From an uncultured Opitutia bacterium (GTDB taxonomy: Bacteria > Verrucomicrobiota > Verrucomicrobiia > Opitutales > Opitutaceae): a stretch of DNA of 42,765 bases. The notes below the pieces were generated by a model that was not told where the DNA came from, made no database searches, and saw only the letters and a program-made list of their open reading frames with translations. Positions 4,985 through 33,462 of this stretch are shown here, piece by piece (position 1 is the first letter of the stretch; each line of letters opens with the position of its first letter). The position numbers and the translations under genes are program-made. The stretch is taken from the NCBI GenBank assembly GCA_903840415.1, contig CAIMFY010000116.1, forward strand, positions 1 to 42,765, read 5' to 3'.

Positions 4985-6757
4985 ATGCGATCACCGTCGT
5001 CTGCTCCCTCGCCGCACTCGGCCTTGGCCGCCGACGACTTTGTCATCCAACTTGCGCTTGATCGCGGCCTCCTCCGCGCCGACCAAGTCGACCGGGCGAA
5101 AGCTCTCGTCGCCGGCCACACCGATCCCGCGGTGCCGGCGCCGCGACTGCTCGATGTGCTGGTGCAGCAAGGCGGCCTGAGCGCCCGTAGTGTCGCCGAA
5201 CTGCTGGCCACCGAATTTAGCATGGCGATGGCGCCCGATCTTGCGAACGTGCGTGTGACGGGCGACACCCTCGAAATCGTCCCGCGCGCCGTGGCTGCGC
5301 GCCACCTCCTCCTGCCACTCTCGCGCGACGCCCACACGCTTCGCGTCGCCATCGCCGATCCGTTCGACACTGATGGCATCGACGCGCTCGGCTACTTGTC
5401 CAAGCTCGCCATCGAACCGGTCGTCGCCACCGCCGCCGAAATCACCGCCGCCATCGATCGGTTCTACGGTAAGGACGCCAGTTCCATCGACGATCTGCTC
5501 AATGATCTTTCCGTCACCGGCAACGATGGCAATGCGGCCGTCACGACCGAGTCGAACACCGCCGCCACCGCTAGCAATACGGATGCCGACGCGCCGATCA
5601 TCAAGCTCGTCCACCAGATTATTCTGGAGGCGATTCAACGGCGGGCGTCCGATATTCACATCGAGCCGCTCGAAAAACGCTTTCGCGTCCGCTACCGGAT
5701 CGACGGCGTGCTGCTCGAGGTCGAGAACCCACCGAAGCGCCTCCAGCTCGCGATTATCTCTCGCCTGAAAATCATGGCGAATATTTCGATCGCCGAGAAA
5801 CGCATCCCGCAGGACGGTCGCATCCAGATCAACGTCGGCGGCAAGCAACTCGACTTGCGCGTGTCGTCTCTGCCGACGGCGCATGGCGAAAGCATCGTGA
5901 TGCGCATCCTCGACAAGGAAGGTCTCACCCTCGGCTTGCCCGAACTCGGCTTCTTCAGCGACGACGCCGCGACCTTTGAAAAACTGATCACGCTGCCTGA
6001 CGGCATCCTGCTCGTCACCGGCCCGACCGGCTCCGGCAAGACGACCACGCTCTACGGCTGCCTCCACTACATCAACAAACCGGACCGCAAGATCATCACC
6101 GTCGAGGATCCGGTGGAATATCAGCTCAACGGCATTAACCAGGTGCCCGTGCGCGCTGACGTCGGCATGACGTTCGCCTCGGCGCTTCGTGCGATGCTGC
6201 GCCAGGCGCCGAATATTGTGATGATCGGCGAAATCCGCGACCTCGAGACGGCCGAGATCGCGATCAACGCGTCGCTGACCGGCCACATGGTGTTCTCGAC
6301 GCTGCACACCAACGACGCTCCGAGCGCCGTCACCCGCCTCATCGACATCGGAGTGAAGCCGTTTCTCGTCTCCACGTCGCTCCGGGCGACGATGGCGCAG
6401 CGCCTCGTCCGAAAGATCTGCCCCAAGTGCAAACGCCCCTGCACCCCGGAGGCCAAAGAGCTGCGCGCGCTTAACATCACGGCGGCCCAGGCGGCAACGG
6501 CGACGTTTGCGAAAGGCGACGGTTGCGCTGAGTGCAACTCTACTGGTTATCGCGGCCGCATCGGCATTTTTGAAGTCTTCGTCGTGAACGAGGAAATTCA
6601 GAAAATGATTTACGAGCACGTCGGCTCCGCACGGTTGCGCGAAAGGGCCCGGGCACTCGGCATGAGGACGATGCGTGAGGATGGTTTGCGCAAGGTCACC
6701 GCCGGTTTGACCACCATTGAGGAAGTCGTCTCCATCACCGTCGGCGACGCGAATTAA
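4985..6757 (+). CDS. type IV pilus/type II secretion assembly ATPase (PilB/GspE family), copy 1
   Basis: This hexameric ATPase powers pilus or pseudopilus extension from the cytoplasmic face of the inner membrane. The 590-residue protein has an N-terminal MshEN/GspE-N-like region (about 15-165), a low-complexity linker (about 175-200), then the N2 and ATPase domains. Walker A is GPTGSGKT at 346-353. The Asp-box and Walker B follow, with [10 protein letters not shown] and the His-box [11 protein letters not shown] zinc-binding tetracysteine module has CxxC pairs at 479/482 and 514/517. It sits 10 bases after rho and 16 bases before pilT. It closely resembles the second ATPase at 7875-9566; the sequence alone does not say which is pilus-type and which is secretion-type. 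Confidence 0.93.
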
Positions 6758-7874: not shown

Positions 7875-9566
7875 ATGTTCCCCGCTCACAGTCCTGCAAT
7901 CTACGAGTTCCTGCGCGAACAGCGCCTCGTTGAGTTGGACCAACTCGACGAGCTCAACGAGGAGCACAAGGCCACGGGCAAGCCACTGGCCGACGTTGTT
8001 GTCGATCTTGGAATCGTCGAGCGATCGGAGTTGTTGCGCCGGATTGCGGACCATTTGGGCTGCGATTACCTCGACGAATTGCCGGTCCAGTTTCCTGGCG
8101 AAGCCATCGCGGCGATTACGGGCAAACTCGCGAGGGACTATGGGGTGATGCCGCTTCGGGCGGACGATCAGAGTGTCGACCTGCTCGTCACCGATCCGTT
8201 CAACGCGCAGGCGGTCGATGATCTCACGTTCGCCTTGGGGCGGAATATCCGGATGTTTTTTGCCGATCCCGACAAGGTCGACATCCAGATCAAGCAGCAC
8301 TACGGCGAGGACGAGGAGAGTATCGACGATCTGTTGCAGGAAATCAGCAGCGGTGGGCTCGTGACCGAGGGCCGCGAGCTGTCCGAGCACGACATCGAAT
8401 CGATGGCAGAGCAGACGCCGATCATCCGGTTTGTGAATCTGGTCGTCGGTCAGGCGATCCGCGACAAGGCGAGCGACATTCACTTCGAGCCGTTCGAGCA
8501 CGAGTTCAAGATCCGCTATCGCATCGACGGTGCACTTTACGAGATGGCGCCGCCACCCAAGCAGCTCGCCGTGCCGATTATCTCGCGCATCAAGGTGCTC
8601 GCCTCGCTCAACATCGCGGAGCGACGCATCCCACAGGATGGCCGCATCAAGATCACGCTGGGCGGCCGGCAGGTGGACTTGCGCGTGTCGACGCTGCCGA
8701 CGCAGTTTGGCGAGAGCGTCGTGCTCCGCGTGCTCGATCAGGCAGCGGTGCAACTCGACATCACCCAACTCGGAATGCCGGAGGATGTGTTCAACGGGAT
8801 TCACGAAATCATCCGTCGACCGAATGGGATTTTCATCGTCACGGGCCCGACCGGTTCCGGAAAAACCACGACGCTCTACAGCGGCCTGCGCATTATCAAT
8901 ACCGTCGATCTCAAGCTCCTTACCGCCGAGGATCCGGTGGAATATGAGATCGAGGGCATCATGCAGGTGCCGGTGAACCCGCTCGTCGGGCTCACGTTCG
9001 CCTCGGCGCTGCGGTCGTTTCTCCGGCAAGATCCCGACGTGATCATGGTGGGAGAAATCCGCGATCTGGAGACAGCACAGATTTCCATTCAGGCGTCGCT
9101 GACCGGCCATTTGGTGTTGTCGACGCTGCACACCAACGATGCGGCGGGGGCGATCACGCGGCTCATCGACATGGGCGTGGAACCGTTTCTGATCGCGTCG
9201 ACGCTGGAGGCGGTGCTGGCGCAGCGGCTGGTGCGGCGCGTGTGTCCGCAGTGCAAGTCGGCCTATGAGCCGGCGCCGGAATTATTGAAACAGCTGGGAG
9301 TGAAACGGGAGAGCATCGGCGACCGGCAGTTCCACTATGGCAAGGGCTGTCCGGTTTGCACGCAGACGGGTTACCGCGGCCGGCTGGGCATCTACGAGTG
9401 GCTGCGGATGACCGAAGCGGTGCGCGATTTGGTGGTGCAACGATCGCCGACGCTCGTCATCCGGCAGAAGGCGCTGGAGCAGGGGATGCGCACCCTGCGC
9501 GACGACGGCCTGCGGGCGATTTTCGACGGCCACACGACGATCGAGGAAATCGTCAAATACACCTGA
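7875..9566 (+). CDS. type IV pilus/type II secretion assembly ATPase (PilB/GspE family), copy 2
   Basis: This is a second full assembly ATPase, 563 residues. It has an MshEN-type N-terminal domain (about 10-150), the linker [12 protein letters not shown]-like segment, then the ATPase with Walker A GPTGSGKT at 324-331, [13 protein letters not shown] as Walker B, the His-box [10 protein letters not shown], and zinc CxxC pairs at 457/460 and 492/495. It begins 18 bases after pilT, and the platform gene starts 2 bases after its stop, so it is probably translationally coupled to pilC/gspF. That coupling makes it the likelier partner of that platform. Against copy 1 it lacks the Thr/Asn-rich linker and differs throughout the N-domain, so the pair is an old duplication or represents two machines. 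Confidence 0.93.
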
Positions 9567-24287: not shown

Positions 24288-26246
24288 GTGCCAGACCAGA
24301 CGATTACCTCAGTGTCCCGGGAGAACCGGAAATTCAGGCCTTCGGCCGAGTTCAAAGCCCAAGCTAATCTTGGGAGTGATACGACTTACAAAAGGCTCTA
24401 CGCCGAGTCTGTCAACTCCCCAGAAAAATTCTGGGGCCGGCAGGCTACCGAACAACTGGTCTGGCGGAAGCCATTTAAGAAGGTCCTCGACTGGCAACCG
24501 CCGCACGCCAAGTGGTTCGTGGGCGGCAAGTTGAACGTCTCCGAGAACTGCCTCGACCGTCACCTCGGCACGTATCGCGAAAACAAGGCCGCACTTATTT
24601 TCGAAGGCGAGCCGGGCGACGTCCGCACAATCACCTACAAACAGCTCCATTTCCACGTTTGCCGGCTCGCGCACATTTTCGAAAACATGGGCATCGGCGA
24701 AGGCGATCGCGTCGCGATCTACATGCCGATGATTCCGGAAGCGGTGATGGCGATGCTCGCCTGCGCTCGCGTCGGCGCCGTGCACACCGTCATCTTCGGC
24801 GGCTTCTCCAGCGAATCGATCAAAGATCGCATCAACGACTGCAAAGCCAAGCTTGTCATCACCGCTGACGGCGGCTGGCGGCGCGGCAAAGTCATCGAAC
24901 TCAAGGCCAACGTCGACAAAGCCATCGAGGGCACACCCACCGTCCACACGGTCATGGTTGTCAAACGTTGCGGCAATCCGGTCACGATGGTCGAAGGCCG
25001 TGACGTCTGGTGGAAGGAAGCATGGGAAGGCGCACCGAATACCCACAAGGCGAAGGCGTTCGATTCCGAGCACCCGCTCTTCATCCTCTACACGAGCGGC
25101 TCGACCGGCAAACCCAAGGGCGTGCTTCACACGAGCGCCGGTTACCTGCTCGGCGCGAAGCTCAGCTCGCACTACGTTTTCGATCTCAAGGAAAACGACC
25201 GCTACTTCTGCTCCGCCGACATCGGCTGGATTACTGGCCACAGCTACGTCGTCTACGGGTTGATGGCGAACGGCGCGACGATCTTCATTTACGAGGGTGC
25301 GCCGAACCAGCCCGAGCCCGATCGTTTCTGGTCGATGATCGATCGGCACGGGCTGACGATTCTCTACACGGCGCCCACGGCGATTCGCGCGTTCATGCGC
25401 TGGGGCGACAATTATGTCCTCCGCCACCGGCTCGATTCGCTCCGCCTCCTTGGCTCGGTCGGCGAGCCGATCAACCCCGAAGCGTGGATGTGGTATCACA
25501 CGATGATCGGCAAGAAACGCTGCCCGATCGTCGACACGTGGTGGCAGACCGAAACCGGCTGCATCATGATCACGCCGTTGCCCGGCATCACGCCTACGAC
25601 GCCCGGTTCGGCGACGCGGCCGTTCTTTGGCGTGAAGCCGATGGTGGTCGACGAACGCGGCGAGGAAGTTCCGCGCAACAGTGGCGGCAAACTCGTGATC
25701 ACACAGCCGTGGCCGTCGATGCTTCGCACGCTTTGGGGCGACGACGATCGTTTCAAGAAAGCCTACTTCAGCGAATTTCCCGCGCACCCGCACTACTACT
25801 TCACCGGCGATGGCGCGCGCCAGGATAAGGACGGTTATTTCTGGATCGTCGGCCGCATCGACGACGTGCTCAACGTCTCCGGCCATCGCATCGGCACCGC
25901 CGAGATCGAGAGTGCACTCGTCTCGCATCCGGCCGTCGCCGAGGCCGCCGCCGTCGGTCGACCCGACGAACTCAAGGGGCAGTCGCTTGTCGTCTTCGTC
26001 ACCGTCAAAGCAGGCATCACGCCGAGCGAGGCGCTCAAAGAGGAACTCCGGAACCATGTCGGCAGGGAAATCGGTTCGCTCGCGAAACCTGATTCGATCC
26101 GCTTCGCTGCGGGTCTGCCGAAGACGCGCTCCGGAAAAATCATGCGCCGCATCCTCAAGGAGATCGCCGCCGGTGGCGCGATCAAGGGTGACACGACGAC
26201 GCTGGAAGATTTCTCCGTCGTGGCGGCGTTGCAATCGGAAGAGTGA
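24288..26246 (+). CDS. acs: acetate-CoA ligase (acetyl-CoA synthetase)
   Basis: Acs activates acetate to acetyl-CoA through acetyl-AMP in the cytoplasm and is the main route for acetate use or scavenging. The 652-residue protein is the usual length. It shows the AMP-binding P-loop [12 protein letters not shown], the acetyl-specific pocket region around [12 protein letters not shown] and DTWWQTETG, the hinge motif [20 protein letters not shown] and the C-terminal [11 protein letters not shown], whose lysine is the site of regulatory acetylation in the family. GTG 24288 is the start that gives the normal N-terminus. It is divergent from the second rho and ends 4 bases before a perfect hairpin. 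Confidence 0.97.
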
Positions 26247-26398: not shown

Positions 26399-27124
26399 AT
26401 GCTGTCTGTCCGCCGACCTCGCTGGCTTTCTGCGCCCACTGACCGACGCGCGACGTCGCGAATCGGGTTCACCTTGATCGAACTGCTTTTGGTCATGGCC
26501 ATCATTGTCCTGCTGGCCGGGTTTGCGGTGGTCGGGATCATCGGCGCGAAGCAACGCGCCGCGGTGGCGCGATCGAAGGCCGAACTCGCTTTGCTCGCCG
26601 CCGCGCTTGAAAACTACAAACGCCACTATGGCGACTATCCGCAGACCGGCGGTGCGGCCCAAGCTCCGCTAGCGCCGACTGCGCTCATCGGAACGACCAC
26701 GGCCCAGGCGCTGCTGTTCAACGCGCTCACCGGTGTTTACGCGCCGACAAATTTCACGACCCGCATCAATGGTCCATCGTTGATTGATGTGTCGAGATTT
26801 TCGCTCGAAGCCGCACTCACTGCTGCCACGTTTGCCGTGCCCACCGGCTCCCCGCCGGCCAAAACCGTCGTCGCCAATTCCTTCCTCGATCCGTGGGGCA
26901 ACCGCTATCTCTACTACTACAAAAATCCGCGCAACACTGCGAACTGGCTCGCGCCGGGCTACGTGCTTTATTCCGCCGGGCCTGACGGAAAATTGGGCAC
27001 AGGCGCACCGCCCGCCACCGGCACGACGGATAACGGGATCAATCCTGCAACCGGTCTATACAGTGGCACCTCTCAAACCACGGGCTTCAATGCCGACAAC
27101 CTTTACGCCGACAAACTCCCATGA
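26399..27124 (+). CDS. GspG-like major pseudopilin
   Basis: This 241-residue prepilin is the most GspG-like of the cluster. A 24-residue basic leader ends in G, followed by the processing site FTLIELLLVMAI with Glu at +5 and a hydrophobic helix. Further on it has DPWGNRYLYYY and later YVLYSAGPDGKLGTG, the DPWGN and C-terminal calcium-loop region of GspG major pseudopilins. It is longer than classical GspG (about 140), mainly through a middle insertion. A prepilin peptidase would cut after the Gly and an inner-membrane machine would assemble the mature subunit. ATG 26399 starts the operon, 118 bases after the acs hairpin; the next gene overlaps as ATGA. Confidence 0.85.
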   Translation: MLSVRRPRWLSAPTDRRATSRIGFTLIELLLVMAIIVLLAGFAVVGIIGAKQRAAVARSKAELALLAAALENYKRHYGDYPQTGGAAQAPLAPTALIGTTTAQALLFNALTGVYAPTNFTTRINGPSLIDVSRFSLEAALTAATFAVPTGSPPAKTVVANSFLDPWGNRYLYYYKNPRNTANWLAPGYVLYSAGPDGKLGTGAPPATGTTDNGINPATGLYSGTSQTTGFNADNLYADKLP

Positions 27125-27831
27125 CTTCGCGCCGCTCCCGCTCTTTCGGTTTCACCTTGATTGAACTGCTCGCCGTCGTGGCGGTCATCGGCATTCTCGC
27201 CACGATTCTCGTGCCGACGCTGAGCTACGCCCGCACCGCCGCGAGCAAAGCGCGCACTCGCACGCAGTTTTCGCAATGGGCCGCCGCGTTCGAGGCCTTT
27301 CGTCAGGAATACGGCGCCTACCCGCAGCTTTATCCGACCGGCTCGCAGCACCTCGTCAATCAAAGCGCCAGCACCACGGCCACCGCGGAGCACCTGTTCT
27401 ACGATACGCTCAGCGGCCGCCGCCGCGACCCGACGGGCAGTTGGAACGCTGCGACGACCCGCAACCCGCCAATGCCTCAGGCGCAGAACACTCGTCGGAT
27501 TCAGTTCGTCTCCTTCAACGATGCCGACATGGTCATCCAAGCCGACATTCCCACTTACAACACGGCCCTCGAACTTAACTTCATCCGCGACGGTTTCCAC
27601 AACACCTCCATCGCCGTCATCACCGACGCTAATCTCGACGGTGTCATCAATCTCAACGATTGCTCCGGCGGCTATCCTTCGGTCACCGTTTCCGGCGCTA
27701 CGACGACGCTCAAGCCGCTGACGACGGATTTACCTGCGGCCACGACTGGTGGCATTCACCAAGGCGTGATTTTCTACAGCGCGCCACCCGGTGCCTCGAC
27801 CGGCTCCGATCTCATCATGAGTTGGAAATGA
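27121..27831 (+). CDS. GspG-like pseudopilin, second copy
   Basis: This 236-residue prepilin-type protein has a 10-residue leader (MTSRRSRSFG) and the processing site FTLIELLAVVAV with Glu at +5. The extended helix carries FEAFRQEYGAYPQLYPTG, the tyrosine-and-proline element seen at the helix end in GspG/PilE-like proteins; the first copy has its equivalent at YKRHYGDYPQTGG. A stretch DANLDGVINLND resembles a metal-binding dockerin-like loop. The C-terminus ends in STGSDLIMSWK. ATG 27121 overlaps the previous stop and the next gene overlaps its stop as ATGA, so the cluster is one transcription unit. Confidence 0.83.
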   Translation: MTSRRSRSFGFTLIELLAVVAVIGILATILVPTLSYARTAASKARTRTQFSQWAAAFEAFRQEYGAYPQLYPTGSQHLVNQSASTTATAEHLFYDTLSGRRRDPTGSWNAATTRNPPMPQAQNTRRIQFVSFNDADMVIQADIPTYNTALELNFIRDGFHNTSIAVITDANLDGVINLNDCSGGYPSVTVSGATTTLKPLTTDLPAATTGGIHQGVIFYSAPPGASTGSDLIMSWK

Positions 27832-28556
27832 GCCACGCTCTCCGAGCAGTAGCGGCGGTCGGTGACCGCCGAATCCGTGCGCCCGGCGGTCACCGACCGC
27901 CGCTACTGCGGGCCTTCACCCTAATCGAACTGATGATCGTAATCGGTCTGATCATCGTGCTAGTCAGCGGGCTCAGCCTTTCGCTTGGCGACTCCAGCGG
28001 CAACTCGCTCGGCACCGCGCAAAATCTGGTCGCGAGCCTCGTCGGCACGGCGCGCGCCCAAGCTGCAGTCAACCAGACCGAGGCACGCGTGGTCATCTAC
28101 GCCACGCGACCGCCGAGTGGTGATCCCGACAAATACCTTCGGCTTCTGCAGGTTTTTGTGGCCAACCCGGAAGGTTCGCAAACGTGGCAGCCGGTGGGCA
28201 GTCCGGTTTACTTGCCGCGCGGTGTTTATGTCGTGCCGACTGCGACCGCGGGCCTGCTTGCGAGTGGCGTGATCTGGCTGGCAAACCCGCAACCCGTCTC
28301 GAAAACGATCGGCGCGTTCACGATGTCGACCCAGCCCACCGGCACGGTGTTTGCCGGTGCGCCATCGTGTTTCTACGTTGAGTTTGAACCCGACGGCTCA
28401 ATCAAGCCGGCCTCGACGCCCTACACCCAGATCGCCGTCGCGACCGCCACGTTGACCAATAATCTCCCGGCGTTCAACAACTCCGGCGCCGTCCGCGGCG
28501 TCATCATTCGTCCAAGCGGTGCCGTTACTTTTGTGAACGATGCGACGAGCTTTTGA
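27828..28556 (+). CDS. GspH-like minor pseudopilin (Verru_Chthon cassette D-like) with a REP-like insertion in its leader
   Basis: This 242-residue prepilin has processing site FTLIELMIVIGL preceded by Ala at -1. ATG 27828 overlaps the previous stop as ATGA and is the only start available: no ATG, GTG or TTG occurs between it and the cleavage site. Its 28-residue leader is therefore long, and 21 or so of those residues are encoded by the palindrome at 27846-27909. The body has the D-type and GspH-type features LVASLVGTARAQAAVNQTEA and a conserved-looking LRLLQVFVANPEG with VYLPRGVYV. GspH-type proteins sit in the pilus tip or fibre of type II systems. The next gene starts 4 bases downstream. 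Confidence 0.78.
   Translation: MSHALRAVAAVGDRRIRAPGGHRPPLLRAFTLIELMIVIGLIIVLVSGLSLSLGDSSGNSLGTAQNLVASLVGTARAQAAVNQTEARVVIYATRPPSGDPDKYLRLLQVFVANPEGSQTWQPVGSPVYLPRGVYVVPTATAGLLASGVIWLANPQPVSKTIGAFTMSTQPTGTVFAGAPSCFYVEFEPDGSIKPASTPYTQIAVATATLTNNLPAFNNSGAVRGVIIRPSGAVTFVNDATSF
27846..27909. repeat. REP-like double palindrome inside the leader of a pseudopilin gene
   Basis: Two inverted 26-base arms (27846-27871 and 27884-27909) are perfectly complementary and separated by 12 bases. Each arm is itself a hairpin: GTAG at 27849-27852 is followed by CGGCGGTC-GGT-GACCGCCG (8-bp stem, 3-base loop), and the mirror copy ends in CTAC at 27903-27906. A GTAG tetranucleotide at the foot of a GC-rich hairpin, in inverted pairs, is the layout of REP/BIME elements moved by RAYT transposases. 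No RAYT gene is in the window. The element is in frame and adds no stop codon. Confidence 0.8.
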
Positions 28557-28560
28557 TCCG

Positions 28561-29151
28561 ATGAGACGCACGCTTGCCGCATTCACGCTGCTCGAAGTCG
28601 TAGTAGCGATCGGAGTCTTCGCCGTTGGGATGGTGGCGGTCATCGGGCTGTTTTCGCCCGTCGTAAAATCCGTCGGCGATTCCGCCGACGCCGAGTCTGC
28701 CACGCGCGTCGCCGACTTGCTCAACGTGAAATTGCAAGCACAGGGAATTCCGGTCGTCGGCCCCAACCTAAAGATCTTTACCGGCAAGACTGCGCACCAG
28801 CTCACCACGGCCGACGCCAGTGGCTCCTACAACATCGCCACGGATTCCCAGCTCCTTTTCGCCAGCCGCGACGGCACGATGATTGGCGCCTTTAATGATC
28901 CCGTATGGGTCAATGGCAGTCGGGACAAATTTTTCGAAATCGCTCTCATTCGCAACGAGACGATTTCACCAGTCGGTTCCGACACCACTGCGCCCTTGCT
29001 TGCCTACACGGCGCGGGTGCGCTGGCCGGCGTTTATCGCTCTCGCCGGCGGCACCGGTTCCGTGCAAGTTGGCGCGAATCCCATCGCCGTCGTCCCGTTC
29101 GATCAAAGCCAGAAGCAAGTCCTCTTCTTCACCGGCGCCATCACCCGATGA
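28561..29151 (+). CDS. GspI-like minor pseudopilin (Verru_Chthon cassette B-like)
   Basis: This 196-residue prepilin has a very short leader (MRRTLAA) and processing site FTLLEVVVAIGVFAVGMVAV, Ala at -1 and Glu at +5. The FTLLEVVVAIGVF start is that of GspI and of Verru_Chthon B proteins, which have a LLEVVLA-like motif. The body is mostly beta and has YTARVRWPAF near the C-terminus, similar to GspI. ATG 28561 is preferred to an in-frame ATG at 28540 that lies inside the previous gene. It overlaps the next start as ATGA. Confidence 0.78.
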   Translation: MRRTLAAFTLLEVVVAIGVFAVGMVAVIGLFSPVVKSVGDSADAESATRVADLLNVKLQAQGIPVVGPNLKIFTGKTAHQLTTADASGSYNIATDSQLLFASRDGTMIGAFNDPVWVNGSRDKFFEIALIRNETISPVGSDTTAPLLAYTARVRWPAFIALAGGTGSVQVGANPIAVVPFDQSQKQVLFFTGAITR

Positions 29152-30347
29152 GCATGAAATATCATCGCAAGGAGGGAAACGACAAGCGGGTAGGGCGGGT
29201 TATCCTTCACCCGCCGCCTAAGCGCGGATGCCTCCTTTCACGGCGCATTTGGGATAACGCGCCCTACCGCCAAGCTGGCTTCACGCTTCTCGAGCTCCTA
29301 GTCGCCACGACGATCACCGCGGTCCTCGCGGGCTTTATTGTGCTCATCGTTTCCAACGTCGCCAGCGTTTGGACACGGACTAGCAACCGCCTCTCCGCCG
29401 ACACCCAGGCGCGCTACATCCTTGACCAACTCACGCTCGATCTCTCGTCGGCGCAGTTTCGCGACGACGGCAACGTGTGGTTTGCCGCCAGCGTGTTGGA
29501 TACCGCGACCAACTCCAGCCTGTGGCAGGCCGCCGCTGCCAACGGCAAACCAAGCGGGAGCACCTCGCTCGCGATGACCGCCGCCAATCTGACCGATGCG
29601 CGCTTTGGTCAAGCTGGCGTGTGGCTGCGTTTCTTCACGACGCGCCGCGGGGCGAACGATGCGACGAACGCAACGACAACACTCGCCACGGCTTCCGCTC
29701 CAGTGGCCGTGGGTTATCAAATCATTCGCCGTTTCAGCGCCGTCACCGCGACGAATCTGGGCACCGGATATTTCCTGCACCGGGCCGAAGTGCGCCCCGC
29801 GGCTTCCGGCACCGGTGCGGCCGCGCGTCCCGGCGTCCTGGAGTCGGGTTACAACATCCGGGCCGCGGCCTACACCACGAGCACGGCGAGCAATAACAAC
29901 GGTTCCACAGTCGGCGACCCGCGCACAGTCCAAGTCCCCGGCACCGCGCGTGATTTTACCTCGGTCATCGGCAGTAATGTGATCGACTTTGGCGTGCGGT
30001 GCTACGTCCGCGACAGTTCGCAAACGACCGGATTACGGCTGGTATTTCCAGCCACTAACGTTACCGGCACGATCTCCAACGTCGCTACCGCGAGTCTCTT
30101 CAGCTCTCTGCCCGCGACCACGCCCGCCACTGCCACGAATTTCAACCAAGTCATGCCCGACGTCGTCGACGTGATGGTGCGCATCCTCACCGACGACGGC
30201 GCGCGGCTCATCACGCTCTACGAACAGGCCAGCTCGCCGCTCACGCTGCCGACTGGCATCAACGCGCAGCAATACTGGTGGCAGCTCGCGCTGGCGCACT
30301 CGCAAATCTTCACCCGCCGCATCGTCCTCCACGCGCAACCGCTCTGA
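29148..30347 (+). CDS. GspJ-like minor pseudopilin (Verru_Chthon cassette C-like) with a REP-like insertion in its leader
   Basis: This 399-residue prepilin has processing site FTLLELLVATTITAVLAGF with Gly at -1 and Glu at +5. ATG 29148 overlaps the preceding stop as ATGA; no start codon lies between it and the processing site except ATG 29154, so the leader is about 44 residues. Most of it is encoded by the hairpin element at 29190-29267. After the helix, ARYILDQLTLDLSSAQF resembles the ADRLRRDLRRA-type region that follows the helix in GspJ and cassette C proteins. It is about twice as long as classical GspJ. The gene is followed 7 bases later by the GspK-like gene, and the order G-G-H-I-J-K is as in type II secretion operons. 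Confidence 0.78.
   Translation: MSMKYHRKEGNDKRVGRVILHPPPKRGCLLSRRIWDNAPYRQAGFTLLELLVATTITAVLAGFIVLIVSNVASVWTRTSNRLSADTQARYILDQLTLDLSSAQFRDDGNVWFAASVLDTATNSSLWQAAAANGKPSGSTSLAMTAANLTDARFGQAGVWLRFFTTRRGANDATNATTTLATASAPVAVGYQIIRRFSAVTATNLGTGYFLHRAEVRPAASGTGAAARPGVLESGYNIRAAAYTTSTASNNNGSTVGDPRTVQVPGTARDFTSVIGSNVIDFGVRCYVRDSSQTTGLRLVFPATNVTGTISNVATASLFSSLPATTPATATNFNQVMPDVVDVMVRILTDDGARLITLYEQASSPLTLPTGINAQQYWWQLALAHSQIFTRRIVLHAQPL
29190..29267. repeat. REP-like hairpin element inside the leader of a second pseudopilin gene
   Basis: GTAG at 29190-29193 is followed by a hairpin GGCGGGT (29194-29200) with ACCCGCC (29209-29215). At the other end CTAC at 29264-29267 closes a mirror hairpin GGCGC/GCGCC on the minus strand. 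The outer arms 29189-29205 and 29252-29268 match in 16 of 17 positions. It shares TAGGGCGGGT with the element at 35737-35778. The element runs in frame through codons of the leader of the GspJ-like gene and ends 15 bases before the cleavage-site phenylalanine codon. Confidence 0.72.
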
Positions 30348-30354
30348 CTCTGCC

Positions 30355-30390
30355 TTGCTCTCTCCACTTTCAGCTCTCAACTCTCAACTC
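30355..30390 (+). repeat. CTCTCAA tandem repeat forming the leader of the GspK-like gene
   Basis: CTCTCAA occurs twice in tandem (30374-30380 and 30381-30387), followed by CTC, in a pyrimidine-rich stretch that starts with the TTG start codon. It encodes the Ser/Leu/Asn-rich leader LSPLSALNSQLT. The unit resembles low-complexity CTCTCAACT runs that I associate with verrucomicrobial intergenic regions; that association is from memory and untested. Confidence 0.4.
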
Positions 30391-33300
30391 ACCGCGAAGC
30401 GCGGTTTCGCCCTGCTCATCACGGTCACGCTGCTCGCGTTTCTGGTCGTGCTGCTCGTTGGCCTCGCCGCCTACACGCGCGTCGAAACCGCCGTCGCTGG
30501 CAACACCCAGCGCCAGACTCAAGCCCGGCAAAACGCGCTCATGGCCCTCGACGTCGCCCTCGGCCAGCTTCAGAAATACGCTGGACCCGACCAACGCGTG
30601 ACGGCGCCGGCCGACGCGTTCGGAGGCACCAACGGCACGAAGCATTTCACCGGCGTTTGGCATAGCGATCCCACGGTGGCGGCCACACCCGCAACCCCGC
30701 TCACGTGGCTCGTCAGCGGCAACGAGTTGCAATCCGGTGGGCTCCCGACACCGCTCGCCATCAAGCCAAGCGCAGCGCTCACCACTACGAATGCCGCCGA
30801 ACTCGTCGGTATTCATACATCAGGCACCGCGAACGATGTCCTCGCGCCGCTGCAAACTGTCACGACGGTTGGTTCTCCGGGCGTGGCCGGGGCGACAGCC
30901 ACCACCATCGGCCGCTACGCCTGGTGGGTTGGCGACCAAGGCGTGAAAGCATCTGTCGCGCTCGCCGATCCCACTGCCACTGCGAGCAACTTCGCCTACG
31001 CGCCATACACGTCGGCCGAAATGCTCAGCCGCATCCGCCAGCAGATTTCCCTCGGCACTGGCCCCGCCGACAACTCTGGCAATCCCGTTTTCGAACCGCG
31101 CGACACCAACAACGCTCCGCTCGTCGCCAACCAGAAAGTCACTGCATACAACCAACTCGTGTTCCTTAAAAATTCCGGCAATGCCACCCTCGGCCTCACG
31201 CCGTTGAACACCTATTTTCACGCCTGGTCGTCGAATAATTTCGCGGTCCTCGCCAACACTTCCCCGTCACTCACGAACCTCGGCCTCCGGCAGGATCTCT
31301 CGCTTTATTCGCCAGCAAAGCCCAGCCCGCTCGGCACCGCCTTCGACGCTTGGGCGAACTACGATCCTGCCAACGGCGGCTACATGGAGGATCCGAATGC
31401 AAGTTCTGCGGGTAACTTCCCACCCCAACCGCAATTAACATCAGATCCGCTCCGGCGTAGATATCTCATGCAGGGCTCGTCTCCCTTGGTATCACCGATT
31501 CTCAGTTTATTTCTCCTTTCTTTTAATGTCCGCACGCAGCCGACCGGAAGTAATAGCCCCTCTGCCTCGCCTCAGCCTTTACAGGTGCGACTGCGTGGCG
31601 CTTTCACCCTTTGGAATCCTTACAGCAGCGCACTAGTCCCGGAAGCTAATCTACGGTTAGATTTGTCCGGTTTACCGAGTACTGTCACTCTAACGCATTC
31701 TGATGGGACGACCGCGTCTTCAATGACGGTTCCCTTCGCCAGTGCGTTTCAATCAGGCAATTCGATTCGGATAAGCCTGCCTTGGAGCGTGGATTTGTCC
31801 AACAGTGCCGCAGATTCCAGAAGTTCATGGCTACCCGGACGCACCTATAGTTGGACGATTGCCGAGGACCTTACCAGCAACACGCCTTCAACGAGTGGTT
31901 ATACCAGCCAAATAAACTCGCAGATGGACGCTTCTGTCTACGGGGACGGCGTGATCCAAAATATCGCCGGAACCATTGTAGACGGAGGTGATTCATGCGT
32001 GCTCAGCTTTGCGGGAACAACGCAAATTACTGCGCGCCTCGTGGCCGTTCGATCAGGAGTAGATGTCCCATTGGCCACATTTACTTCCCCCACATTTAAT
32101 TCGTTCACCGCTCAAAAAACCACAGTCGGAGCTTTTACTTACACTCCAACATTTGTTTTCCGGCTTGCAGAAAGTGACAATGGAACCGGCGCTTGGCTCA
32201 CCACACCCGGTTTGGATCCACGTGCATCGCCTCTGCCGGGCGATGCCGCTTACGTGGTCGGAACCACCGGCTACGTCAATGGCCCTTCGCCGGATTTGTA
32301 TCCTAACGTGACCAAAGTATCGGCGCCGGATCGGCTTCTTGATCGGGCGACGAACAGTTACACCTACAACGAGGATGTGCCTGTGTTTGAACTGCCGAGA
32401 TCGCCGATTCTTTCGATCGGAGAGTTGCAGCATCTTCAACTGGTCGGTTCACGTCCATTCGCCGTCGGCAACTCTTGGGGCGAAGCCGTTCAGTTGAACG
32501 GAATCAATACTGGCGCGCTGTTTGATCAGTTTTTTTTCTCCGGCCTCGCGCCCGGCGTCAAACCCACAGTCGTCAACGGTGCATTAGTCCTGCCGAATCC
32601 GCTGCTCAAGCCGATGCCACGTAATTCTGCGACTGGTGCCGCGGTGGTGCTCACCGATTTGCAAAATGCGCCCATCCAGCAGTCTTCAAAATTTTTGCTG
32701 CAGGGCGGAGCGTTCAACCTGAACTCGGTCAACCCGACCGCATGGATCTCCGTTCTACGTGGTGTGCGCTTTCCTGCGCCCGCGGCCTTCAACTATCTCG
32801 ATGCCGATCCAACGACGGGCACTGGACCAGATTCACCGCCTGCCTCGCCGCCGATCCAGTCGAGCAATGCGCAATTCCTACGCTTCGCCCAATCCGCCCA
32901 GGAAACCTACAAAGCCGAGGCGGGCAACTCAGGCGGTGCAGCGCAGACGCAACTATTCCGTCAAGGCATGAGAACACTAACGGCCGCGCAAGTATCCGCA
33001 CTCGCATCGGCGATCACCAACCTAATCAAGGTGCGTCAAACTGGGAGTGGTCCTTTTCGGTCACTTGAGGAGTTCTTAGGCCCGGCGACAACCGGAAATC
33101 CGAGCCTGCTCGAGCAGGCCATCTCCAACGCAGGAATCAATTCGAGCGTCTCCGAGTTCAGCTCCCAGTTTCTCACGCAGGCGGACATCATGACGGCGCT
33201 CGCGCCGGTGCTCTTTCCGCGGTCAGACACGTTTGTCATCCGCAGCTATGGCGAGGCGGTGAATCCGACGACCGCCGCGACCGAGGGCCGGGCTTGGTGC

Positions 33301-33462
33301 GAGGCCATCGTTCAGCGCGTGCCTGATTATTTCGATTCGAGCACAGCGACTGGCGATGCGGCCGAAATTGCTCCCGCCGCTCTCAAGAGTGCGATCAACC
33401 AGTCCTTCGGTCGCCGTTTCAAAATCATCTCTTTCCGATGGCTCACGCGTTCAGACATTTGA
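30355..33462 (+). CDS. GspK/PilX-like giant pseudopilus protein (Verru_Chthon cassette A-like)
   Basis: This 1035-residue protein is preceded by a leader of 17 residues ending in KRG, then FALLITVTLLAFLVVLLVGLAAY. Position +5 is Ile, not Glu, as in GspK, which normally lacks Glu5 and caps the pseudopilus. After the helix comes RQNALMALDVALGQLQKYAG, typical of the K/PilX/Verru_Chthon A start. Late in the protein RSLEEFLG and TVRSYGEAV-like text (FVIRSYGEAV) recall the C-terminal GspK region. Classical GspK is about 320 residues, so the middle is a huge insertion. Codon use changes around 31420-32400 (more TTA, CTA, AGT, GTA). The start is TTG 30355, since there is no ATG upstream of the helix. 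The next gene overlaps as TGATG. Confidence 0.75.
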   Translation: MLSPLSALNSQLTAKRGFALLITVTLLAFLVVLLVGLAAYTRVETAVAGNTQRQTQARQNALMALDVALGQLQKYAGPDQRVTAPADAFGGTNGTKHFTGVWHSDPTVAATPATPLTWLVSGNELQSGGLPTPLAIKPSAALTTTNAAELVGIHTSGTANDVLAPLQTVTTVGSPGVAGATATTIGRYAWWVGDQGVKASVALADPTATASNFAYAPYTSAEMLSRIRQQISLGTGPADNSGNPVFEPRDTNNAPLVANQKVTAYNQLVFLKNSGNATLGLTPLNTYFHAWSSNNFAVLANTSPSLTNLGLRQDLSLYSPAKPSPLGTAFDAWANYDPANGGYMEDPNASSAGNFPPQPQLTSDPLRRRYLMQGSSPLVSPILSLFLLSFNVRTQPTGSNSPSASPQPLQVRLRGAFTLWNPYSSALVPEANLRLDLSGLPSTVTLTHSDGTTASSMTVPFASAFQSGNSIRISLPWSVDLSNSAADSRSSWLPGRTYSWTIAEDLTSNTPSTSGYTSQINSQMDASVYGDGVIQNIAGTIVDGGDSCVLSFAGTTQITARLVAVRSGVDVPLATFTSPTFNSFTAQKTTVGAFTYTPTFVFRLAESDNGTGAWLTTPGLDPRASPLPGDAAYVVGTTGYVNGPSPDLYPNVTKVSAPDRLLDRATNSYTYNEDVPVFELPRSPILSIGELQHLQLVGSRPFAVGNSWGEAVQLNGINTGALFDQFFFSGLAPGVKPTVVNGALVLPNPLLKPMPRNSATGAAVVLTDLQNAPIQQSSKFLLQGGAFNLNSVNPTAWISVLRGVRFPAPAAFNYLDADPTTGTGPDSPPASPPIQSSNAQFLRFAQSAQETYKAEAGNSGGAAQTQLFRQGMRTLTAAQVSALASAITNLIKVRQTGSGPFRSLEEFLGPATTGNPSLLEQAISNAGINSSVSEFSSQFLTQADIMTALAPVLFPRSDTFVIRSYGEAVNPTTAATEGRAWCEAIVQRVPDYFDSSTATGDAAEIAPAALKSAINQSFGRRFKIISFRWLTRSDI

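Follow-up and report, generated by a model that had tools for sequence, protein, structure and literature searches.

Opitutaceae are bacteria found in soil and water. The window analysed here, a stretch of 42,765 nucleotides from an uncultured member of this family, carries on its plus strand a run of six prepilin-like genes, two GspG-like ones followed by H-, I-, J- and K-like genes, in which the stops and starts of neighbors mostly overlap. The first GspG-like gene (26399..27124; TIGR01710, E 2.9e-14, below the cut-off) is followed by a second (27121..27831), which ends in ...MSWK* and whose stop overlaps the ATG of the H-like gene. The minor pseudopilin genes are GspH-like or Verru_Chthon-D-like (27828..28556; E 7.3e-9 and 36 bits against a cut-off of 70 for TIGR02596, E 1.3e-5 and likewise below cut-off for TIGR01708), GspI-like or Verru_Chthon-B-like by profile matches (28540..29151), and GspJ-like or Verru_Chthon-C-like (29148..30347; TIGR02599, E 6.1e-8). 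The GspK-like or Verru_Chthon-A-like gene, an open reading frame with profile matches, starts at a TTG (30355..33462).

None of these genes reaches the curated cut-offs of the Verru_Chthon cassette proteins A–D (TIGR02600, 02598, 02599, 02596), for which the scores are 24.4 against 332.3 bits (A), 19.8 against 51.4 (B), 32.3 against 256.5 (C) and 36 against 70 (D); at the level of profile similarity they appear cassette-like only. The cut-offs of the type II secretion pseudopilins GspG–K are not reached either, the best scores being 53.2 of 88.85 bits for GspG and 27.5 of 130 bits for GspK. Since the matches to both sets are weak and each lies below its curated cut-off, we use the label pseudopilin-like, with no equivalog assigned. 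The class III signal peptide pattern (Gly or Ala before Phe, Glu at +5, a hydrophobic stretch) is present by sequence in the H- and J-like genes; the J-like gene passes PF07963 and TIGR02532, and the H-like gene stays below the PF07963 cut-off (17.0 against 21.2 bits). In the K-like gene Glu5 is missing, and Pfam gives no match.

The predicted leader of the H-like gene comprises 29 codons (27828..27914) and ends in ..LLRA before FTLIEL. Within it lies a REPIN (27846..27909) built from two GTAG-headed REPs in inverted order, one at 27849-27871 and the other at 27884-27906 on the opposite strand. The arms of the inverted repeat (27846-27871 and 27884-27909) are 26 nt long, 100% complementary and separated by a 12-nt spacer; each consists of GTAG and a small hairpin, and the element measures 58 nt from GTAG to CTAC. 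As a single strand the palindrome folds with −69 kcal/mol (z −9.1), a value equalled by 0 of 200 shuffles. A CTG codon sits 9 nt 5′ of the cleavage codon.

The J-like leader is longer (44 codons, 29148..29279, ending in ..YRQAG before FTLLEL) and holds a REPIN of the GTAGGGCG family (29189..29268), a GTAG family other than that of the H-like element, identified by its inverted repeat, its fold and its family matches. It measures 78 nt from GTAG to CTAC; its arms (29189-29216 and 29241-29268) are 28 nt long and 79% complementary, and its fold (z −3.3) is equally good in 1 of 200 shuffles. Both window elements combine GTAG with an imperfect hairpin, as REPs do, and both pair two REPs closely in inverted order, as REPINs do.

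In each gene the ATG overlaps the preceding stop (ATGA), and the palindrome lies in frame between this ATG and the cleavage codon, a Phe at 27915 (H) or 29280 (J). The in-frame palindromes noted in an earlier sequence-only reading of this DNA are confirmed. That reading's further statement that the palindromes contain no stop in the used frame also holds: both elements are read in the GTA phase, the one forward frame of the three that is free of stops. Its claim of an only possible start codon was slightly too strict, as another ATG occurs at 29154 in the J-like frame, which is open upstream to an ATG at 28905, and the H-like frame is open to a TTG at 27660. All these starts precede the palindromes, however, and neither leader has an ATG, GTG or TTG from the end of the repeat to the cleavage codon.

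The K-like leader (17 codons, 30355..30405) carries a CTCTCAA heptamer tandem, CTCTCAACTCTCAACTC, at 30374..30390. The tandem is present as the sequence-only reading described it, but has only about 2.4 copies and a tandem score of 11 and does not fold (z +0.7), and taken alone it is unconvincing. It gains weight only because related heptamer tandems recur in the leaders of some relatives (L078, L091 and L129). The genome count of CTCTCAA (8 matches in the window's own genome, G000, and 7 for the control) has no evidential value, because the control, the pattern read backward, reproduces the tandem itself with a small offset of a few bases. The I-like gene, with a gap of 25 nt, has no scored repeat before its cleavage codon.

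We searched genomes for the repeat types and for their presumed transposases. With up to 2 mismatches allowed, G000 yields 19 matches to the H-type REP and none to its control, as expected of an element present in many copies; elsewhere the H type has 519 matches in G057 (the home of L090; control 1), 53 in G058, 20 in G060 (L147), 3 in G031 and 0 in G059, with controls of 0 or 1 in each genome. The H-type query has 0 matches in the genome of L129, a locus that also carries a leader REP. A further type, TTCCGCC (L125), occurs at 338 places in G058 (control 1 per strand), 4 in G031 and 0 in G000. The J-type REP has 39 matches in the relative G031 (L078) and 0 in G001 (controls 0), and in G000 it has a single match at up to 3 mismatches (controls 0); the J element thus looks like a REPIN of its family yet is not repetitive in its own genome. 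A Y1_Tnp (RAYT-type) gene was found in 10 of 12 genomes searched, a profile that also covers non-RAYT transposases; it is absent from G024 and from G000, which is 98% complete. The expectation of genomic GTAG elements with a RAYT was thus borne out for the copies of the H type, and not for the J type or the transposase. REPs are presumably placed by RAYT-type transposases, and those in the window may be remnants of a system that has since been lost. We also estimated the share of REPs lying inside genes with a heuristic gene caller (8/16, 1/12, 0/11 and 2/3), and dropped these figures because starts were over-extended upstream and some copies were doubled.

To compare leaders among relatives, we scanned genome records with 11 aligned K-like proteins, and the 80 best of the 427 candidates gave 77 loci, most of them titled Opitutaceae or Opitutae; they form a best-scoring set, not a random sample. 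A motif search found 275 prepilin or K-like genes in them, without exception on the expected strand. The K-like protein has relatives at 62% identity in G001, of the same genus, and at 60% in G031. The H-like leader carries GTAGCGGCGG in the window and in L090, GTAGGGCGGG in L078 and GTAGTTCCGCC in L125: G031 (L078) has a GTAGGGCG-family REPIN at the place of the window's GTAGCGGCGG type, and G001 (L055, L080) has an unrelated 13-bp palindrome. These different inserts at the same leader indicate that inserts vary by lineage. In the J-like leader, G031 (L078) has a GTAGGGCG-family REPIN whose left GTAG head is worn. It and the window's J-like REPIN are both about 78 nt long and in the same phase, with loops that look unlike; in the same-genus operon of G001 (L055, L080) the J-like leader is short and has no scored repeat. 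Leaders of 9 to 15 residues exist in orthologues.

Repeats were then counted in the gap between the preceding stop and the cleavage codon. Window included, 197 junctions from 52 loci had the preceding prepilin stop at most 260 nt from the cleavage codon, and the 189 with gaps of at least 24 nt form the basis of the counts. The thresholds (12 for inverted repeats, 13 for tandems) were set after an initial look at the data, in which inverted repeats at score 12 appeared in 21 of 271 leaders, 0 of 271 mature windows and 4 of 542 random windows. At a score of at least 12, inverted repeats occur in 20 of 189 leader gaps (11 loci; two of the gaps are the window's), against 0 of 756 length-matched mature windows (Fisher p 4.5e-15); with the window excluded, 18 of 184 gaps have them. 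Tandem repeats scoring at least 12 were found in 10 of the 189 gaps and 2 of the 756 mature windows. At the two set thresholds, 26 of the 189 junctions bear a repeat of either kind; they come from 13 of the 52 loci and have a median gap of 119 nt, as against 59 nt in the remainder. The other 39 loci have no scored leader repeat. Orthologous leaders, whose comparison the sequence-only reading had proposed, vary widely in length. A single conserved leader without repeats elsewhere in the genome is not what we find, because leaders vary and the H-type REP has its 19 genomic matches.

Among 26 extra stretches of the same family, 3 of which (L059, L062, L071) overlap loci counted before, a score of at least 12 was reached in 2 of 38 junctions (L066, L218) and in 0 of 152 mature windows; L207 (G004) has no repeat row. 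For other families of the order, 24 stretches yielded 1 junction only.

Densities per 10 kb place leaders above all other sequence. Inverted repeats scoring at least 14 reach 9.08 in leaders (17 in 18.7 kb), 2.94 in intergenic DNA (44 in 149.7 kb), 0.12 in other coding sequence (9 in 728 kb) and 0.03 in mature prepilin sequence (1 in 328.5 kb), as counted on approximate gene calls and with the N runs in L133 and L135 left out. At a score of at least 12 the values are 12.29, 4.08, 0.40 and 0.21, so that mature prepilin sequence is not empty at this score (7 in 328.5 kb). The excess of leaders over intergenic DNA (17 seen against 5.5 expected, p 6e-5) is less firm than their excess over coding sequence, because the gene calls are approximate. 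Some of the matches assigned to other coding sequence (for example in L091, L093 and L095, just past the K-like genes) look intergenic.

The pattern extends beyond the operon. A PF07963 search of G057, G058 and G062 gave 82 matches. In 80 distinct prepilin or K-like genes, taken from stretches of these three genomes and one G060 stretch, an inverted repeat scoring at least 12 lies in the open stretch reaching back at most 200 nt from the cleavage codon in 13 cases, 8 of them within K-like operons already counted (L277, L287, L301) and 5 elsewhere. Outside the operon in G057, three loci (L288, L294, L286) have leaders of 50, 50 and 44 residues that run from the ATG through the repeat to the motif. 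The leader at L278 has 92 residues, with the repeat 82 nt in, directly at another ATG; at L279 the ATG comes after the palindrome and placement in a leader is unsure.

The reading that we consider well supported, with good though not full confidence, is that GTAG REPINs, other palindromes and heptamer tandems have been inserted many separate times into pseudopilin leaders of Opitutaceae and are tolerated when in frame. Insertion would occur downstream of the start codon and upstream of the site cut by the prepilin peptidase. Because pseudopilin stops and starts overlap or adjoin, hardly any intergenic DNA separates these packed genes, and an insertion would survive on condition that the frame is kept. 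The reason would be that the extra peptide lies in the cytoplasm and is cut off by the prepilin peptidase, so that the mature subunit lacks it, and its cost is presumably near neutral. The leader as a tolerated landing zone for mobile repeats, which the sequence-only reading had put forward, is supported by the leader excess, by the frame bias described below and by the variable leaders.

An alternative is that the REPs are plain intergenic insertions, with true starts downstream and long leaders as annotation artefacts, as a published survey allows in the parts at hand when it cautions that N-terminal REPs may be extragenic (PMC3733652). One locus fits it: at 10973 of L147 the gap contains stops and the start follows the REPIN, which looks like an ordinary intergenic REP. 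A start codon (ATG, GTG or TTG) follows the repeat in 4 of the 26 repeat-bearing leaders. In the other 22, however, there is none, and L147 is the single exception to an open pilin frame, which is found in 25 of 26 repeat-bearing gaps against 10 and 12 of 26 for the other two frames (p 1.6e-6). The upstream gene gives a further argument: among 38 H-like junctions, chosen by an upstream protein ending like MSWK*, 31 have a start ATG that shares bases with the stop of the upstream gene (ATGA), whatever sequence comes after and although the distance to the cleavage codon ranges from 23 to 218 nt. At least one of the 38, L091, whose upstream protein ends in SLP*, is probably another junction, though it is counted among the 31. 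Start-codon conservation and frame bias are strong indirect evidence against translation starting downstream of the repeats, and the intergenic interpretation is unlikely; the extended leaders would be translated and cleaved.

A second alternative, also raised by the sequence-only reading, holds that the palindromes are kept because an mRNA hairpin, beginning 18 nt past the start codon in H, adjusts how much minor pseudopilin is made within one long mRNA. The very stable window folds (z −9.1 and −3.3) and their position near the start codon would suit it, yet among relatives the presence, family, position and gene of the repeats all vary, the same-genus loci L055 and L080 have another palindrome in H and no scored repeat in the J-like leader, no repeat at all is scored in 39 of 52 loci, and the K tandem of the window forms no fold (z +0.7). 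Regulation by hairpins is possible for single cases and leaves the pattern unexplained; as a general account it is very improbable. Least probable of all, by a small step, is that the REP-encoded arginine-rich peptide was selected as a useful leader through positive-inside topology and beyond mere tolerance. All 26 repeat-bearing gaps encode a positive net charge (+2 to +9), but charge increases with length in GC-rich DNA, and short leaders of 9 to 15 residues exist in orthologues. Neutral tolerance in a removable segment is the best explanation for the variety of inserts, their patchiness, the kept frame and their near-absence from mature sequence.

Each component of this account has precedents. 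Intragenic GTAG and CGTC REPs were reported in BMC Genomics in 2013, the GTAG ones most in Opitutus terrae (PMC3733652). That study describes, in the parts at hand, the same element class in the same bacterial family, with dimers encoding 20-30 residues in frame; its emphasis is on repair and replication genes, and N-terminal REPs are treated as possibly extragenic. In its main text the words pilin, pilus, leader and signal peptide have 0 occurrences. Rickettsia palindromic elements likewise are mobile palindromic DNA that has joined conserved genes in frame and is tolerated there, but they belong to other families and another host and stay in the protein, with peptidase removal undescribed in the parts of that account at hand (PMC2229807). 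The REPs linked to TnpAREP (RAYT) transposases share the GTAG head and imperfect hairpin, and Y1 genes occur in 10 of the 12 genomes here, whereas the system described there, as far as its account at hand goes, has a REP-linked RAYT and the window's genome has no Y1_Tnp (PMC8266576). Class III signal peptides are known to be cytoplasmic leaders that end in Gly or Ala, are cleaved and vary in length, but the portion of the review at hand does not link the variation in length to mobile repeats (PMC10191384). Among the papers listed in a literature search, none had a title or opening of the abstract describing prepilin leaders as a niche for REPs, palindromes or transposable elements. The sequence-only reading's statement that no description was known needs qualifying, since in-frame REPs in Opitutaceae genes are published, and stands as far as apparent novelty of the leader niche is concerned: the element and its capacity to enter genes are known, and its leader niche, a strongly preferred coding niche, is apparently new.

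For the bacteria, the finding names a protein segment in which selfish DNA can enter coding sequence cheaply, since the segment is removed after translation. The doubt over whether N-terminal REPs are coding or extragenic is now testable, because the conserved overlap with the upstream gene pins the start codon; annotation of these genomes should allow for pilin leaders that are long and yet real, and the repeat-bearing leaders are natural experiments on the leader length that prepilin peptidase tolerates. As a tentative extension, which we hold to be possible and well short of likely, cleavable prepilin leaders may be where REPINs and heptamer tandems mainly take refuge within the coding sequence of REP-rich Opitutaceae, and perhaps also of other bacteria whose pilin operons overlap tightly, with some hairpins or arginine-rich peptides possibly co-opted for expression or topology. 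If this is true, leader length would be a readable history of insertions.

The leaders of the K-like pseudopilin genes in four DNA stretches from related genomes (L081, L086, L090 and L143) repeatedly contain tandems of a heptamer, for example GGTCCTT or GAACCCAAAA. A tandem of the same kind is also present in the I-like leader of another stretch (L103), and some of these tandems form inverted pairs. The J-like leaders of L082 (cleavage codon F at 8879) and L116 (cleavage codon F at 5021) carry a similar insert encoding CQC..SDEAIQLDCHARL..ARNDRE, which resembles a widespread bacterial palindromic repeat.

Immediately upstream of the pseudopilin operon in the window lies a 652-aa ORF (24288-26246) that resembles an acetyl-CoA synthetase. 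Comparison of the K-like protein with genome G035 returned 23 matched pieces spread over many contigs; these are pieces rather than genes, and one gene may account for several. The matches suggest that pseudopilin cassettes with K-like genes are expanded in G035.

In genome G031, a GTAGGGCG-type REPIN (two REPs in inverted order) is located in frame within a dihydrouridine synthase gene (L339:709-1914), assigned by its match to PF01207 (E 2e-49, residues 28-253). The REPIN is positioned past the PF01207-matched part and encodes the peptide VGRVIPNPP...DHTPY. This REP is intragenic, and its residues would remain in the protein.
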